Source: Sulfurimonas sp. (lineage in GTDB: Bacteria > Campylobacterota > Campylobacteria > Campylobacterales > Sulfurimonadaceae). Taken from it: a DNA stretch of 64,000 nucleotides. Every line of letters starts with the position of its first letter. Position 1 is the first letter of the stretch. Both the position numbers and the translations under genes were made by a program. The notes under the pieces were generated by a model, which saw only the letters and a list, made by a program, of their open reading frames with translations, was not told where the DNA came from and searched no databases. Positions 31,241 through 38,841 of the stretch are shown here, in pieces. Location: positions 1,353,405 to 1,417,404 of the forward strand of contig NZ_CP093397.1 of NCBI RefSeq assembly GCF_029027585.1. The letters run 5' to 3'.

Positions 31241-32437
31241 TTATACCACTTCAATAGTAGTGCTATCGATTCCGTTATATCTATATCCACCATGATTCCA
31301 AGCAATATCTTTAGAAAAAGGTTGAGCTTCTCCAAGATTATTAATAGCTTTTGCCATTAATGTGAGTTTTCCTTTATGTTTTACTCTAAAGGCAAAACTA
31401 AAGGCTCTAAAAGCGTGAAGAGATAGTTCTTTTTCAAGCCCGGCCTTATGCCAAGTCTTACCAGCATCTATGGATATTTGAACCTCTTTTATCCCGCTAC
31501 CACTATCAAAAGCAACACCTTTTAGTTTAATATTAGAATTTATTTTAAAAGTATCTTCAGAGTTTGGATAAGCAATAATTGACTTAACATTCATCTTTTG
31601 GATTGCTTTAGTTTTGAGAACTAAAGCATCGGGGCTTTCACATTCGCACTCATTATCTGGGATACGGTAAGCTCTATCCATATAAAACATCTCTTTGTAT
31701 TCTTTTGAGATAGTTATATTACTTAGCATCTTTACCCAACTATCTGCATAGTTTCCCGGTATGATAAGACGAACAGGGTAACCGTTCAAAAAAGGTAATT
31801 CTTCATCGTTCATTTCATAAGCAATAATGACATCGTCTTGGATTTCATCAAGTTTTAACTCTCTTACAAAGTTTGCAGTTTTGTGAAAAGCGGCTTTGTC
31901 ATCACCATTTAAACCTACCCAACTTGCACCTTTAGAAGTTTTTGCATCTTTTAAAACATCATTTAATCTCACACCTTTAAATTTTGCACAACCCATAGCC
32001 CCACTTCCCCACTGAATGCCACCAGTTATTGGTGAAAATGCTGAACGAGAATTTCCTCCGCATTGTACAACAGCTGTAATTTCTACTTGTTCGTAGTTTT
32101 GTTTTAAATCTTTTATGGATAGATAAAGAGGATTCTCAACAAAACCATTTATGCTAATTCGATACATATCAATATCTTTATGTGTAGGAATTTTAGGCAT
32201 ATGCCATCTAACAAAAAACTCATCATTCGGAGTGATGGCTTTTGTAAAAAAATCAATAGGAGTTTCTAAGATAGGAGGTCTGTCAGAGTAAGTAATAAGT
32301 GGTTTTTTTTCAGGGAATGCAATTTTTGAAACTCTTTGAGAACTTCGAGGTTGAGATGTAAAACTAGCAAGGGCAGATGAGCCAAAAAGCAGGGAAGAAG
32401 CCACTACAGAGAGTTTTAAAAAGTTGCGTCTTTGCAT
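31241..32437 (-). CDS. sorA: Sulfite dehydrogenase molybdopterin subunit SorA
   Basis: A 398-residue molybdoenzyme oxidising sulfite to sulfate in the periplasm. The Tat signal RRNFLKLSVVASSLLF lies at residues 3-18. The sulfite-oxidase fold follows: FFVRWHMPKIPTH, the molybdenum-ligating cysteine in AVVQCGGNSRSAF (about residue 119), GVRLNDVLKDA, GYPVRLIIPG and WVKMLSNITI. A C-terminal Mo-co dimerisation domain (about 280-398) is present. moaC in this window supplies an early step of the cofactor. It supports a sulfur-oxidising lifestyle. Confidence 0.9.
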   Translation of the reverse strand: MQRRNFLKLSVVASSLLFGSSALASFTSQPRSSQRVSKIAFPEKKPLITYSDRPPILETPIDFFTKAITPNDEFFVRWHMPKIPTHKDIDMYRISINGFVENPLYLSIKDLKQNYEQVEITAVVQCGGNSRSAFSPITGGIQWGSGAMGCAKFKGVRLNDVLKDAKTSKGASWVGLNGDDKAAFHKTANFVRELKLDEIQDDVIIAYEMNDEELPFLNGYPVRLIIPGNYADSWVKMLSNITISKEYKEMFYMDRAYRIPDNECECESPDALVLKTKAIQKMNVKSIIAYPNSEDTFKINSNIKLKGVAFDSGSGIKEVQISIDAGKTWHKAGLEKELSLHAFRAFSFAFRVKHKGKLTLMAKAINNLGEAQPFSKDIAWNHGGYRYNGIDSTTIEVV

Positions 32438-32534: not shown

Positions 32535-32978
32535 ATGGACATTTCATGCCCAATTGCATTTAGAGAAATAGATGGAACTATTGTTAGAATAGGAGCATTT
32601 TTTGTTTCAGTTGTAGTTATTATTTATCTATTTACATCTCAAATCTTTTTACTCATTTTTTTAACTGTTGATTTTGCTATTCGCATCTATGGACATAAAC
32701 CATATAGTCCTATCTATCAACTCTCTCATCTTGTAAAACGGATATTTAGATTTAAAGCAAATATGACAGATGCTGGAGCAAAAAGATTAGCTGCTCAGTT
32801 TGGGCTTCTTTTTTCAGTAATGTTGGTTATAGAAGGTTTGCTTGATTTAACACTTCTTTTGCATATAACTGCTGCGGCACTATTGGCTTGTACTTTTTTA
32901 GAAGTTTTGTTTGGTTATTGTGTTGGTTGTAAGATTTACTTTATTATCAAAAAAATCTATCCAAACTTTATGAGTTGA
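32535..32978 (+). CDS. DUF4395 membrane protein
   Basis: A 147-residue inner-membrane protein with about four hydrophobic helices (20-40, 42-58, 90-110, 112-132). It matches DUF4395: MDISCPIAFREIDGTIVRIGA at the N-terminus and GYCVGCKIYFI near the end. The conserved cysteines (residue 5 and the CVGC pair) suggest a redox role, and such proteins often sit beside sulfur-metabolism or thioredoxin genes. It is divergent from sorA with about 100 bases between. Confidence 0.85.
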   Translation: MDISCPIAFREIDGTIVRIGAFFVSVVVIIYLFTSQIFLLIFLTVDFAIRIYGHKPYSPIYQLSHLVKRIFRFKANMTDAGAKRLAAQFGLLFSVMLVIEGLLDLTLLLHITAAALLACTFLEVLFGYCVGCKIYFIIKKIYPNFMS

Positions 32979-34339: not shown

Positions 34340-34999
34340 TCAAACCAACTTTATTAAGTTTTTAAGAGTAAAGAGTTTTAAATTATCTCCCTTTAGTGCT
34401 TTAAGTTCGCTAGAGAAACCTTTTTTTGAGGATATAACAAATATATCAGCTTTTATTTTTGCTTTTTCGCATTTTTCTTGGAGTTTTGTAAGTTCACTTT
34501 TTTTGATTTTAGCATTTGAGTATCTACATGAACCGACTATGATTTTTCCAGATTTTGTTTTGGCATAGAGGTCTATCTCTACATCTTTATCCCAGTAACT
34601 TCCACTCTCAACAATTGGGTCATTTTTAAATTCAAGTTTTACTAACTCTAAAGATAGTTGCTCAAACATAAAACTTATAAAATCAGCTTGTTTATTTTCA
34701 AACCTTTTTTGAACTTCTTTATAATCTCCATCTTTTATGCCTTTAAAAATAGGCGATACAAAAGCAAACCAAAAACGCATAAATGGTGTGTTAAAAAGAA
34801 GTTTGTCTGAGATTTTATAGTCATCTGCCCAAGTTGTAAACTCTTTACGAGAAGCCTCTAGTCTTATAATCCCTATTTCGCAAAGTTCATTTACTGCTTT
34901 CATGCCAACTTCATGAGTAACACTTGCCTTTTTAAATGCAGAGTGAGTTCTTCCATCTCCAAGGGCAATACCGCTTAGTATTGAGTGGAAAAGAGGCAT
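34340..34999 (-). CDS. DUF234 domain protein, start uncertain
   Basis: The first ATG gives 219 residues that match the DUF234 region seen downstream of archaeal-type ATPase domains: HSILSGIALGDGRTHSAFKKA, then SDKLLFNTPFMRFWFAFVSP and a nuclease-like VEIDLYAKTKSGKIIVGSC (a D-ExK-like pattern). The same frame is open upstream to 35239 and reads on with recognisable family sequence (RALELFSVFGGEEWGD), but contains no ATG, GTG or TTG. Either a start codon has been lost or a rare one such as ATT is used. The full frame would be about 299 residues, the size I would expect. The C-terminal part resembles a PD-(D/E)XK fold. Confidence 0.6.
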   Translation of the reverse strand: MPLFHSILSGIALGDGRTHSAFKKASVTHEVGMKAVNELCEIGIIRLEASRKEFTTWADDYKISDKLLFNTPFMRFWFAFVSPIFKGIKDGDYKEVQKRFENKQADFISFMFEQLSLELVKLEFKNDPIVESGSYWDKDVEIDLYAKTKSGKIIVGSCRYSNAKIKKSELTKLQEKCEKAKIKADIFVISSKKGFSSELKALKGDNLKLFTLKNLIKLV

Positions 35000-35285: not shown

Positions 35286-35891
35286 ATGAAAGAGTTTGAA
35301 TTTTTCACTAAGTTAGAAACAAAGAATCAGGAAGAACTTTTAGCATCATCAACTTTTATGAAAGTTCCAGCTGGAATGCAACTTTACTCTCAAGGAGATA
35401 TTTGTTCTACGATTTTATTTTTAACAAAGGGGCGCGTTCGTGTAGTTCGTCAGCATGAAAATGGTCAAAGTGTTTTACTTTACTATTTTGAGCAGGGCGA
35501 GCAGTGTAATGTAAACTTTACAAGTACATACAATAGTGCTCCTGCGGTTGGAACTGCCATAGCTGAAACAGAGTTGGAAGGTTACGATATTCCCGTAGAA
35601 CTTATAGCAAGACTCTTTGTAGAAGATAAAGAGTTTCAAAAATTTGTGTTTGACCAATATACTTCAAGGTTAGAAGCGATGGCAACGATGATAGAAGATA
35701 TTCGTTTTTCATCTTTAGACACTCGCATACTTCACTGGTTACAATCTCAAGATGAAAATATAGTTCATATTTCTCATGAGGAATTGGGAGATATTATCGG
35801 AACTTCTCGTGAGGTAATAAGTAGAATATTAAAAGGCTTTGAGAACAATAATATAGTTAAGCTTTCACGATTACAAATAGAAATCTGCTAA
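35286..35891 (+). CDS. Crp/Fnr family transcriptional regulator
   Basis: A 201-residue regulator. The cyclic-nucleotide-binding-like domain fills about 10-130 (VPAGMQLYSQGDICSTILFLTKGRVRVV); two cysteines in GDICS and GEQCN may sense redox or metal, since no FNR-type cluster motif is seen. The dimer helix follows, then a helix-turn-helix HISHEELGDIIGTSREVISRILKGFE whose REVISR resembles the RETVGR of CRP. The start is ATG 35286 with GGATAGTTTT upstream; the longer open frame to 35178 lacks a ribosome site. A palindrome TATGTAAC-N4-GTTACATA lies just past its stop. Confidence 0.9.
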   Translation: MKEFEFFTKLETKNQEELLASSTFMKVPAGMQLYSQGDICSTILFLTKGRVRVVRQHENGQSVLLYYFEQGEQCNVNFTSTYNSAPAVGTAIAETELEGYDIPVELIARLFVEDKEFQKFVFDQYTSRLEAMATMIEDIRFSSLDTRILHWLQSQDENIVHISHEELGDIIGTSREVISRILKGFENNNIVKLSRLQIEIC

Positions 35892-35901
35892 ATACTATAC
35901 T

Positions 35902-35921
35902 TATGTAACATTGGTTACATA
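35902..35921. promoter_or_regulatory. Crp/Fnr-type operator upstream of Cys-repeat peptide gene
   Basis: TATGTAAC and GTTACATA form perfect eight-base arms around ATTG. The centre lies 30.5 bases upstream of a candidate -10 TACAAT (35942-35947), which corresponds to about -41, the class II activator position of CRP/FNR proteins. The adjacent Crp/Fnr gene is the obvious candidate binder. The same right arm occurs again upstream of doxX. Confidence 0.75.
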
Positions 35922-35976
35922 GGTGTTAGTTACTTTTATGTTACAATCATTTTAGATTAAATTTTAAAGGATTCAA

Positions 35977-36321
35977 ATGAAAAAATTAAACTTAGTAGCA
36001 TTACTTTTAGGTGCAGCTCTTTTTACAGGATTAGGCGCAGTTTCTCTAACTGCTGAGGGCATGAAATGTGGTGCTGGTAAATGTGGAAGTTCTATGAAAA
36101 AATCTGCTTCAAAATGTGGTGGTGACAAAAAAGCTTCTAAAAAAGCGATGAAATGTGGCGCAGGTAAATGTGGTGCTTCTATGGAAAAACCGCTTAAAGC
36201 GAATGGTAAAACTTGTACAAGTTGTAAAGGCGATAAAAAAGCGTCTAAATGTGGAGATGGAAAGAAAGCTTCTAAAAAAGCGATGAAATGTGGCTCTGGA
36301 AAGTGTGGCGGTAAAAAATAG
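35977..36321 (+). CDS. Secreted Cys-Gly-Lys repeat peptide (HvfA/bufferin-like)
   Basis: A 114-residue protein with a Sec signal peptide (1-27) and a mature part built from KCGxGKCG and KKASKKAMKCG repeats; ten cysteines are spaced in nearly regular order. This strongly resembles HvfA/bufferin-type precursor peptides, whose EGKCG-like cysteines are modified by MNIO (DUF692) enzymes to bind copper. No MNIO or HvfC partner is visible within the window. A DoxX gene (HvfX-like) and a shared operator lie 2 kb away. An AAAGGATTCAA site precedes the ATG. The similarity is by sequence pattern; copper binding is inference. Confidence 0.75.
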   Translation: MKKLNLVALLLGAALFTGLGAVSLTAEGMKCGAGKCGSSMKKSASKCGGDKKASKKAMKCGAGKCGASMEKPLKANGKTCTSCKGDKKASKCGDGKKASKKAMKCGSGKCGGKK

Positions 36322-36333
36322 TCTTTCTTTTTT

Positions 36334-36357
36334 ATAGCAGAGATTATTCTCTGTTAT
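36334..36357. terminator. Bidirectional hairpin after Cys-repeat gene
   Basis: ATAGCAGAGA pairs with TCTCTGTTAT around TTAT, with one G-T pair. It lies between two convergent genes and overlaps the stop region of the MBL remnant. Confidence 0.6.
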
Positions 36358-36978
36358 AATTTCAACTTCATCCTATCCTCTGCAAAAAGTACTTTTCCTT
36401 TAAAAACTTTTTTTATAATATTTAGACTTTCATCTTCATTTTTTAAAGTTCTTTTCATTCGGTGAGTTAAAACTACTTTTTTTACATTTGCATCTTTAGC
36501 AACTTGGGCGATGATAGAAGGTTGCATATGCAAATCTTTTGCGAATCTTCCTGAATGTTGTGTTATGGCGTGATGAGCTATAAATATATCTGCATTTTTT
36601 GCTATCTTTTGCAGGTTTTTATCTTCGTTATTTGTATCTCCACTTATAAGGATACTTTTTTTATCCACTTCAATCCTAAGTGCAAGTGCAGGGACTATGC
36701 CATGATGTACCCTTATAAGTTTTAGAGTAAAGTCTTTGTATTTTTTTGTAATAATTTTATTTGCTTTTATCTCAAAAGGAATAATCTCAAATGAGTCACT
36801 TTGTGGTGCAATAATTTTTAAACTCTTTTCTCTAGAAGTAAAAAAAACAGCTTTTACAAATGTAGGTTTGTAAGTAGAAATAACAAGAGGATATATTTCA
36901 TTTAAATTTCCAGTGAGTATTTACTCCGCTTGGAGAAACTGCAACATTACAATAGCTTTTTAAGTGATTTATGTTCAT
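36354..36978 (-). pseudogene. MBL-fold metallohydrolase remnant
   Basis: The start ATG at 36978 reads MNINHLKSYCNVAVSPSGV and stops after 26 codons. A different frame then continues with NEIYPLVISTYKPTFVKAVFF and joins the intact C-terminal part (SGDTNNEDKNL, FIAHHAITQHSG, KKVVLTHRMKRTL), typical of RNase Z-like MBL hydrolases. The N-terminal HxHxDH zinc motif is absent, so a deletion plus frameshift has destroyed it. The ATG overlaps the stop of the upstream HD-GYP gene by one base. Confidence 0.75.
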
Positions 36979-38078
36979 TATAAGTCTTTAAACTTATCGC
37001 GTATTTTTAAAAATATATCTAGGTTATCTAAAAAAAGTTTTACAAGTTTTGGATCAAAATGTTTACCACTTTCATCTTTAAAAAGTTCTAAGATTTTGTC
37101 TAATTCCCAAGCTTTTTTATAAACTCTATGTGAGCCAAGAGCATCAAATACATCCGCAATTGCTGTTATACGACCATATATATGTATATTTTCTTGTGAA
37201 GTTCCATTTGGATAACCACTTCCATCATATTTTTCATGATGTTCATTTGCTACTATGGCTGCTGCTTGGAGTATTGGTTTGTTCGAACTTTTAAGCATAT
37301 CATAACCCATAGATGCATGTGTTTTCATGATTTGGAACTCGTCTTTAGTTAATTTTCTAGGAGCATTTAAGATAGCATCTGGGATTCCGACTTTACCGAT
37401 ATCATGCATAGGAGATGCCATTTCCAGTTTACTTGCTTCCTCGTAAGATAAACCATATAAAAGAGCTAGTTCTTTAGAGTAAAGTGCTACTCTTTTTACA
37501 TGATTTCCTGTTTCTTTTGAGCGTGTTTCGCCAATTTCTCCCATGGCATAGATAACCTCTTTTTGAGTGTCTTCTATGGCATCATTTAACTCCATGATTT
37601 CGGTTACATCTGTTAGATAAGCTAAAACAAATTTTTCCCTTGAGATACCTTTTAAATCAATCTTATAAAATTTTTCTTCATATTTAAACATAGAATTTTC
37701 TAGAGTATTTTTACTAATGATTTTTTCATACTCTTTTATGCACATATCTGAGATAGAGTTAATATTTGGAAGTTCTTTTTTTGCCGTTTGATTTTGAAAT
37801 ACAATATTTCCGTTTATGTCAAATATAAAAACAGGAGATGGACGATGTTTTGGTAAAAGAGATAGATAATAGTTCTCAACACTAAATTTTTCGTTTATTT
37901 TAAATATATAGTAAATAAAACAAAACTTTTTAAAACCTGTGTAGTAAATAAGTAAGCTAAAAAGAGCTAAAAAAATAGAATTGTTAATAACACTAAAAAA
38001 AAGTATAAGAGTAGCTAAAATTATTCGTAGATAAGATTCAGTAGGTTTCATATTGCAACGGTGCTTTTCAAACATCAT
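36978..38078 (-). CDS. Membrane PAS-HD-GYP c-di-GMP phosphodiesterase
   Basis: About 367 residues. It starts MMFEKHRCNMKPTESYLRI, with two membrane helices (about 16-55) resembling a DUF2892 segment, then a PAS-like domain (PSPVFIFDINGNIVFQNQTAK) and an HD-GYP domain with HDIGKVGIPD and HHEKYDGSGYPNG, all key residues intact. I choose the start at 38075-38078 (ATGATG behind AAGGGG) over a longer frame to 38159. It is divergent from doxX, with a Crp/Fnr-type palindrome between them. The broken MBL gene follows. Confidence 0.85.
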   Translation of the reverse strand: MMFEKHRCNMKPTESYLRIILATLILFFSVINNSIFLALFSLLIYYTGFKKFCFIYYIFKINEKFSVENYYLSLLPKHRPSPVFIFDINGNIVFQNQTAKKELPNINSISDMCIKEYEKIISKNTLENSMFKYEEKFYKIDLKGISREKFVLAYLTDVTEIMELNDAIEDTQKEVIYAMGEIGETRSKETGNHVKRVALYSKELALLYGLSYEEASKLEMASPMHDIGKVGIPDAILNAPRKLTKDEFQIMKTHASMGYDMLKSSNKPILQAAAIVANEHHEKYDGSGYPNGTSQENIHIYGRITAIADVFDALGSHRVYKKAWELDKILELFKDESGKHFDPKLVKLFLDNLDIFLKIRDKFKDL

Positions 38079-38132
38079 CAATCCCCTTGTACAAATATGC
38101 AAGTAGTATAACACAAACAAAATAGTAACTCT

Positions 38133-38152
38133 TATGTGATTAAGGTTACATA
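38133..38152. promoter_or_regulatory. Second Crp/Fnr-type operator, between HD-GYP gene and doxX
   Basis: TATGTGAT-TAAG-GTTACATA has the same right arm and N4 spacer as the site at 35902, with two changes in the left arm. Its centre lies 29.5 bases upstream of a candidate doxX -10 TAAAAT (38172-38177), again about -41. For the divergent HD-GYP gene a candidate -10 (TATACT, minus strand 38105-38110) lies 32.5 bases away. Confidence 0.7.
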
Positions 38153-38202
38153 CAGGCATACACTTATGTGTTAAAATACGGATACTAACAAATAAGGAGT
38201 TT

Positions 38203-38646
38203 ATGATGAATTTTAAAAATTTATATTTAATGTTTAGTGATTTAACAAAACATCTTCAAGCACCAGCTTTACTTTTTGCAAGGATAGCAGTTGCTTATGG
38301 TTTTTACGAACCAGCGATGAACAAGTGGGCGGATATAGACTCAGTTGCCCAGTGGTTTGGTTCTATGGGGATTCCGATGCCTCTTTTAAATGCCTATATG
38401 GCGGCAAGTACGGAACTTTTAGGAGTCGTTTTACTGACTCTTGGATTTTTAACGCGTTTGATTTCTTTACCTTTAATAGTTATCATGATAGTAGCTATTG
38501 TAACTGTGCATCTACCAAATGGTTTTTCAGCAGGTGAGAATGGTTTTGAGATACCTTTATACTATATGCTATTTTTGTCGATATTTGTTTCTAGTGGAGC
38601 AGGTAAGTTCTCACTTGATAGAAAAATATTTGGCGATAAAAGCTAA
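38203..38646 (+). CDS. DoxX family membrane protein
   Basis: A 147-residue inner-membrane protein with about four helices. Family signature: LLFARIAVAYGFYEPAMNKWADIDSVAQWFG, then a second half with TELLGVVLLTLGFLTRLISLPL and a C-terminal GAGKFSLDRKIFG. DoxX members of the HvfX/BufX type accompany MNIO-modified copper-binding peptides. Its promoter shares an operator with the Cys-repeat peptide gene, which links them. AAGGAG precedes the ATG. The small gene after it is only 12 bases away. Confidence 0.88.
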   Translation: MMNFKNLYLMFSDLTKHLQAPALLFARIAVAYGFYEPAMNKWADIDSVAQWFGSMGIPMPLLNAYMAASTELLGVVLLTLGFLTRLISLPLIVIMIVAIVTVHLPNGFSAGENGFEIPLYYMLFLSIFVSSGAGKFSLDRKIFGDKS

Positions 38647-38658
38647 AAAGGAGATATT

Positions 38659-38841
38659 ATGTGTATGCCTCATGGTGGCGGAAGCCGAAGTAATGGTTAT
38701 ATCGAAATTAACAAAGTCAAAAAACATATACAAAAAGTTTCACAAGAGCAGTTTGAAAAAGGTGACCCTAATTTCATAGATGAGAGAAAAAATGAGTATG
38801 TACCTAAAAAGAAAAAAGCCTTTTTTTCTTTTTTTGAATGA
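38659..38841 (+). CDS. Small His/Cys-start protein downstream of doxX
   Basis: A 60-residue protein beginning MCMPHGGGSRSNGYIE, with Cys and His close to the N-terminus that could bind metal, followed by a basic helix (VKKHIQKVSQEQFEKGD) and a Lys-rich end. Its AAAAGGAGATATT ribosome site is excellent and it lies 12 bases after doxX. It has no signal peptide. I do not recognise the family. Its sharing of a transcript with doxX makes a role in the same metal or thiol response plausible. Confidence 0.65.
   Translation: MCMPHGGGSRSNGYIEINKVKKHIQKVSQEQFEKGDPNFIDERKNEYVPKKKKAFFSFFE

Follow-up and report, generated by a model that had tools for sequence, protein, structure and literature searches.

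HvfA- and bufferin-type copper-binding RiPPs are defined by their MNIO enzyme, an iron enzyme that normally matures such peptides. In Haemophilus, the hvf operons group the gene of the precursor HvfA with those of HvfB (the MNIO enzyme), HvfC (the partner of HvfB) and HvfX (PMC13419390). The locus described here lies in a stretch of 64,000 nucleotides (the window, to whose first letter positions refer) in the 2.6-Mb single-contig genome (completeness 99.87) of a sulfur-oxidising marine bacterium of the Sulfurimonas group. It shares with the Haemophilus influenzae hvf operon (hvfA-hvfB-hvfC-hvfX, oxazolin) and with Buf_EGKCG/oxazolin clusters (PMC13419390, PMC12452194) a secreted KCG-repeat precursor and a DoxX-type HvfX, and in one relative (G167) the full gene set is found beside the same regulator. 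However, the source genome has no HvfB, its precursor is of the MKCG type, and hvfA and hvfX stand in separate units that carry a predicted Crp/Fnr operator. Bufferin/GIG operons with DUF2282 precursors (the Caulobacter sigma-F regulon and the GIG operons of Legionella and Cupriavidus) likewise combine a peptide with DoxX in a context of metal stress, but their precursor family differs and the Caulobacter operon is controlled by an ECF sigma factor and not by a Crp/Fnr activator.

Regarding its regulation, the locus resembles class II activation by E. coli CRP in the R-E-x3-R helix, the TGTRA-N6-TYACA site and the distance of 29.5/30.5 bp between site centre and -10, whereas the regulator, named HvfR here, lacks the GEL...RS segment that contacts cAMP, has two invariant cysteines and is predicted to govern a local regulon. 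NssR of Campylobacter, which shares the Campylobacterota context, and HcpR/HcpR2 are Crp/Fnr proteins with palindromes of related core (TTAAC-N4-GTTAA and GTAAC-N4-GTTAC). However, NssR carries A180-Q181 and HcpR2 R180-P181 (PMC1274295) where HvfR has R180-E181, and their targets are globins or hcp and not hvf genes. The open-access literature searched contained no account of hvf or bufferin genes under the control of a Crp/Fnr protein, and we read the system as an MNIO-less Hvf variant with its own Crp/Fnr activator.

An HvfA-Like Peptide, HvfX and Their Neighbours

At 35977..36321 (+) the window encodes a Cys-repeat peptide of 114 aa with a signal-peptide-like start and eight KCG motifs of the MKCG type. 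It scored 23.8 bits against NF050137 (HvfA family RiPP metallophore; cut-off 19.5); a search of the whole genome with NF050137 did not list the peptide at the E threshold of that search. The KCGxGKCG repeats are kept, that is, the KCG-x-x-KCG repeats that characterise a secreted peptide of this kind, and the peptide is assigned on these grounds to the HvfA RiPP-metallophore family. The DoxX membrane protein of 147 aa (38203..38646, +; PF07681) reached 120.4 bits against NF050144 (HvfX family; cut-off 80), assigning it to HvfX, the usual partner of HvfA. HvfA and HvfX are known to belong to a single system, which is an independent reason to expect an operator shared by their genes. A small gene of 60 aa (38659..38841, +; MCMPHGGG...) starts 12 bp after doxX and is expected to be co-transcribed with it; NCBIfam and Pfam models gave no family match for it, and its homologues have a palindrome copy of their own in four relatives (G081, G138, G137, G042).

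Between hvfA and a divergent HD-GYP gene lie the remnant of a metallo-beta-lactamase-fold (MBL) gene (36354..36860, -; N-terminus missing, an internal gap, a weak PF12706 match) and a nine-residue match to a Zn-ribbon-like gene (36901-36927, -; E 0.028), which is suggestive only. The MBL remnant matches the gene after HvfX in a complete operon of a relative (tblastn 8e-42, residues 90-287 of 288), and intact counterparts of both adjoin the hvf operon of G167 (L200). Near the hvf genes are also found a molybdopterin oxidoreductase (31241-32437, -; PF00174/PF03404) and a DUF4395 membrane protein (32535-32978, +); PF00174 genes have been reported from a small number of Buf_EGKCG clusters (PMC12452194). 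The window also contains a DUF234/Mrr_cat-type ORF (34340-34999, -), the start of which seems shortened. Several relatives (G039 L182, G136 L171, G001 L173, G034 L167, G206 L183) share another KCG peptide, lipoprotein-like and of ~125 aa (GMKCGAGKCGANMFDG...), which forms a separate branch among the HvfA-like peptides.

Putative Palindromic Operators and Promoter Geometry

The initial annotation had described two 20-bp palindromes at 35902 and 38133 with identical right arms and an N4 spacer, and their coordinates hold. Operator 1 (35902..35921; TATGTAAC-N4-GTTACATA, full site TATGTAACATTGGTTACATA) stands before hvfA and operator 2 (38133..38152; TATGTGAT-N4-GTTACATA, full site TATGTGATTAAGGTTACATA) between the HD-GYP gene and doxX, and in relatives the sites are kept before hvfA and doxX, respectively. 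A pattern search of the whole 2.6-Mb genome for exact matches to TATGTNAYN4GTTACATA returned the two operators only. The core TGTNAYN4RTNACA gave 21 genome matches compared to 10 for the backwards control, and among the 15 of these 21 that were inspected only three, those of hvfA, doxX and dsbD, are intergenic and have an extended -10 at 29.5/30.5 bp.

The extended -10 of hvfA (TGT-TACAAT, 35939..35947, +) lies 30.5 bp from the operator centre and that of doxX (TGT-TAAAAT, 38169..38177, +) 29.5 bp, placing the predicted transcription starts near 35954 and 38184, respectively; the gap of about 30 bases to a plausible -10 that had been noted before is thereby measured. For CRP sites of class II in E. 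coli, centred at -41.5, the corresponding distance is 29.5 bp. From the spacing to the predicted -10 boxes, both promoters are putatively class II, as had been proposed, with the operator predicted at about -41. Among 56 aligned Sulfurimonadaceae promoters, 50 have their best -10 hexamer, in most cases after a TG, at a distance of precisely 29.5 or 30.5 bp from the centre of the palindrome, compared to 6.2% in shuffled sequence.

Conservation in Sulfurimonadaceae

The search covered 228 genomes of the family, the named ones being from Sulfurimonas, Sulfuricurvum and further Sulfurimonadaceae, and hvfA, doxX, MNIO and regulator loci were taken from many of them. The palindrome was sought before the orthologous genes, as had been proposed, and was found for the peptide, doxX and the small downstream gene; across Sulfurimonadaceae it is seen again upstream of hvfA and hvfX and of complete hvfA-MNIO-HvfC-HvfX operons. 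A palindrome score of at least 14 was observed before 72% of the hvfA genes in genomes with an HvfR orthologue, 45% of those in genomes with intermediate homologues and 20% of those in genomes with none, compared to 2.8% of 1078 control genes. In G167 (L200), a 6-kb stretch unites an HvfR orthologue, HD-GYP, the small gene, the Zn-ribbon-like gene, a palindrome-bearing hvfA, MNIO, HvfC, HvfX and MBL, an arrangement that looks ancestral.

The divergent HD-GYP gene (36978..38078, -; PF13487/PF01966) had been proposed as a possible further target of operator 2. Its start was placed by homologues, the longest ORF beginning at 38159. In five relatives (G081, G160, G138, G083, G165) its -10 lies at 29.5/30.5 bp, in line with this proposal, whereas in the window the -10 TATACT (38105-38110) is 32.5 bp from the centre of operator 2, making the case for HD-GYP weaker there. 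Outside the window, dsbD (134218-135627, -), encoding a protein-disulfide reductase (NF001419 382 bits, PF11412, PF02683), carries the third intergenic class II-type site of the source genome, again 29.5/30.5 bp away from an extended -10, and is likely a further HvfR target in this genome. The same arrangement precedes dsbD in two genomes of other genera (G002, G008) and possibly in G034, but the site is absent in most congeners; dsbD was therefore rejected as a general member of the regulon and kept as a variable one.

The Regulator HvfR

HvfR (35286..35891, +; 201 aa) combines a cNMP-binding-like sensor domain (PF00027, 39.6 bits) with a Crp-type HTH (PF13545, 40.5 bits), both above the gathering scores, which places it in the Crp/Fnr superfamily. 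Its recognition helix GTSREVISR is CRP-like, as had been read from the sequence beside the sites: S-R-E-V-I-S-R aligns with S-R-E-T-V-G-R of CRP at Arg180, Glu181 and Arg185, and all HvfR orthologues have a helix of the form G(T/S)SREV(I/V)S(R/K). Among the four Crp/Fnr proteins of the genome, HvfR is the only one with R180-E181, i.e., with a CRP-type Arg-Glu-Arg helix, the other three (SPETLSR, QPETLSR, QPATLSR) having Pro at 180. In a comparative study Arg180 was linked to G3 of the half-site (PMC1274295); all 56 sites have this G3 in the left arm and its partner C in the right arm.

Against the NCBIfam CRP equivalog HvfR reached 64 bits (cut-off 266). The residues of CRP that contact cAMP are G71-E72 and R82-S83. 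The segment GEL...RS containing them is absent from HvfR, in which the aligned segment is CNVNFTSTYNSAPAVGTA with the replacement CNVNFTSTYNSAPAVG. By the missing contact residues and the score below the cut-off HvfR is not CRP, and cAMP is an unlikely ligand because these residues are missing. Nor is it FNR, the oxygen sensor whose Fe-S cluster is bound by cysteines of which several are N-terminal: the sensor domain of HvfR has just two invariant cysteines, C40 and C74, and the N-terminal Cys cluster motif is absent. Both are present in 18 of 18 aligned HvfR homologues, two of them sister-clade proteins, and it is reasonable to suppose that HvfR uses C40/C74 to sense a thiol or a metal. An AlphaFold2 model of HvfR (mean pLDDT 73.8, pTM 0.49), least confident in the segment 76-87 that follows C74, was not the basis of any conclusion.

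The HvfR orthologues (59-82% identity, the G167 orthologue 76%) form a clade of 17 sequences, and the sister clade also comprises 17. Genomes with HvfR or a sister-clade protein have a class II-type site upstream of an hvf gene in 24 of 28 cases, compared to 15 of 78 others (Fisher 6e-10, in a test that ignores kinship and with some sister-clade members placed manually on the basis of identity and tree), and genomes with an HvfR orthologue have one in 13 of 15; no site before hvf genes was found in 51 of 62 genomes without HvfR relatives. The assignment of the sites to HvfR, originally drawn from proximity, is backed by this co-occurrence, by synteny and by the sole R180-E181 helix among four proteins. 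Upstream of the regulator gene itself, no site scoring above 11.4 was found within 250 bases, i.e., no sign of autoregulation. In G053, G051, G057, G039 and others (L094-L099), members of another Crp/Fnr subfamily that share 36-42% identity with HvfR are encoded beside a TCTGTAAC-N4-GTTACAGA palindrome of their own.

Sites also occur without HvfR. The complete genome G099 (L085) has perfect sites before hvfA and doxX, and neither a Crp/Fnr protein with R180-E181 nor, in the loci searched, an HvfR remnant was found there; about ten further genomes have a site without a gene of the HvfR clade. In G103 (L102 7323-7610, -) HvfR is a pseudogene with two in-frame stops and ~75 codons deleted, and the adjoining hvfA and its operator are intact, pointing to a recent decay of the regulator; G226 keeps a short HvfR remnant beside doxX. 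Other Crp/Fnr proteins may use the palindrome, or the palindrome may outlive its regulator. The assignment is accordingly strong for the source genome, and the palindrome is not exclusive to HvfR in the family as a whole.

Alternative Explanations and Peptide Maturation

In an AT-rich genome two palindromes might resemble operators by chance. Chance would indeed account for roughly every second core match in the genome, and the loose pattern with 3 mismatches shows no enrichment in the window (12 found, 7.8 expected), so that the case must rest on position and conservation. However, position, gene association and -10 spacing are conserved in dozens of relatives, and we consider a chance origin exceedingly improbable and, given the conserved 29.5/30.5 bp spacing, ruled out in practice. 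If the operator is real, its main user might still be another Crp/Fnr protein, for example a nitrosative or redox regulator of the Nss- or HcpR-type, with HvfR as one of several. The motifs of HcpR2 and NssR are similar, HcpR2 with its R180-P181 recognising GTAAC-N4-GTTAC; similar TCTGTAAC-N4-GTTACAGA sites lie by the own genes of sister subfamily C; and four genomes (G136, G075, G211, G025) have hvf sites and no HvfR, while encoding other R180 Crp/Fnr proteins (TVRHVIER, TVRKVLNR, SVRKVVNR). In the source genome, however, all three candidates for such a user have Pro at 180, and across the family the sites track the HvfR clade and its sister in the proportions given above and HvfR adjoins them in many genomes, making another main user unlikely. 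HvfR is retained as the probable regulator acting on both palindromes.

The remaining alternative concerns the peptide, which could be a conventional HvfA precursor that receives thiooxazole modifications from an MNIO missed by the model or from a non-homologous enzyme. Its match to the HvfA model, its KCGxGKCG repeats and the retention of HvfX would fit such a precursor. However, the MNIO model PF05114 had no match in the complete source genome, yet it finds the enzyme in 16 of the 228 relatives at E below 1e-85; the MNIO maturase (HvfB) with HvfC that accompanies the HvfA family is accordingly not present in the genome. A DoxX homologue is found in 108 of the 228 relatives, and 95 of these 108 genomes with HvfX have no MNIO, a count obtained by intersecting lists in which part of the genomes are incomplete. 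In a published survey, only 67 of 2583 complete genomes had Buf_EGKCG precursors but no MNIO (PMC12452194), by which measure Sulfurimonadaceae are unusual. Furthermore, the MKCG motif occurs in 0 of 11 peptides beside MNIO compared to 62 of 83 from MNIO-less genomes (Fisher 2e-6, kinship ignored). The simplest reading would be a peptide lineage that works without the MNIO enzyme, and as the genome has no MNIO maturase the peptide probably acts unmodified; a modified precursor appears quite unlikely, even slightly more so than another main user of the operator.

A Proposed HvfR Regulon

The palindromes, their spacing and the genes first noted are confirmed as real; the HvfA and HvfX identities, the missing MNIO and dsbD as a likely further target go beyond what had been foreseen. 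Site conservation, spacing, gene families, MNIO absence, the recognition-helix match and co-occurrence were all computed. Activation as the direction of control, the ligand, and the metal or other target bound by the peptide are what we infer from these data. Very probably, a dedicated Crp/Fnr switch activates, via a conserved palindrome, an exported Cys-rich peptide and its membrane partner DoxX. In the proposed mechanism, HvfR would respond to a thiophilic or redox signal by binding each palindrome at about -41/-42 and would activate sigma-70-type promoters with extended -10 boxes. The first promoter would yield the secreted Cys/Met-rich peptide of the HvfA family and the second the HvfX-family DoxX with the small gene behind it, and the same regulon would include dsbD at its distant locus and, perhaps, the HD-GYP gene divergent from doxX. 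In the periplasm, the peptide would most likely serve as a buffer for copper or some other thiophilic stressor, probably in unmodified form, with DsbD keeping its cysteines reduced. That the palindromes are class II HvfR operators of a regulon of hvfA, doxX with the small gene, dsbD and perhaps HD-GYP, centred on an unmodified buffering peptide, is a reading that we hold to be probable. The wider generalisation is more tentative: HvfA-HvfX of Sulfurimonadaceae might as a whole be an MNIO-independent buffer for metal or sulfur based on an unmodified Cys/Met-rich peptide, with its own two-cysteine, thiophile-sensing Crp/Fnr activator and with DsbD recruited as the reductant of the peptide.

Most genomes of the family keep the peptide and HvfX and not the enzyme, suggesting that these two serve some function independent of it, and Sulfurimonadaceae could allow work on the uncharacterised HvfX in isolation from maturation. 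With its precise operator, a dedicated activator would moreover give a handle on the inducing signal, and the operator offers a route to further members of the system by their promoter and not by homology.
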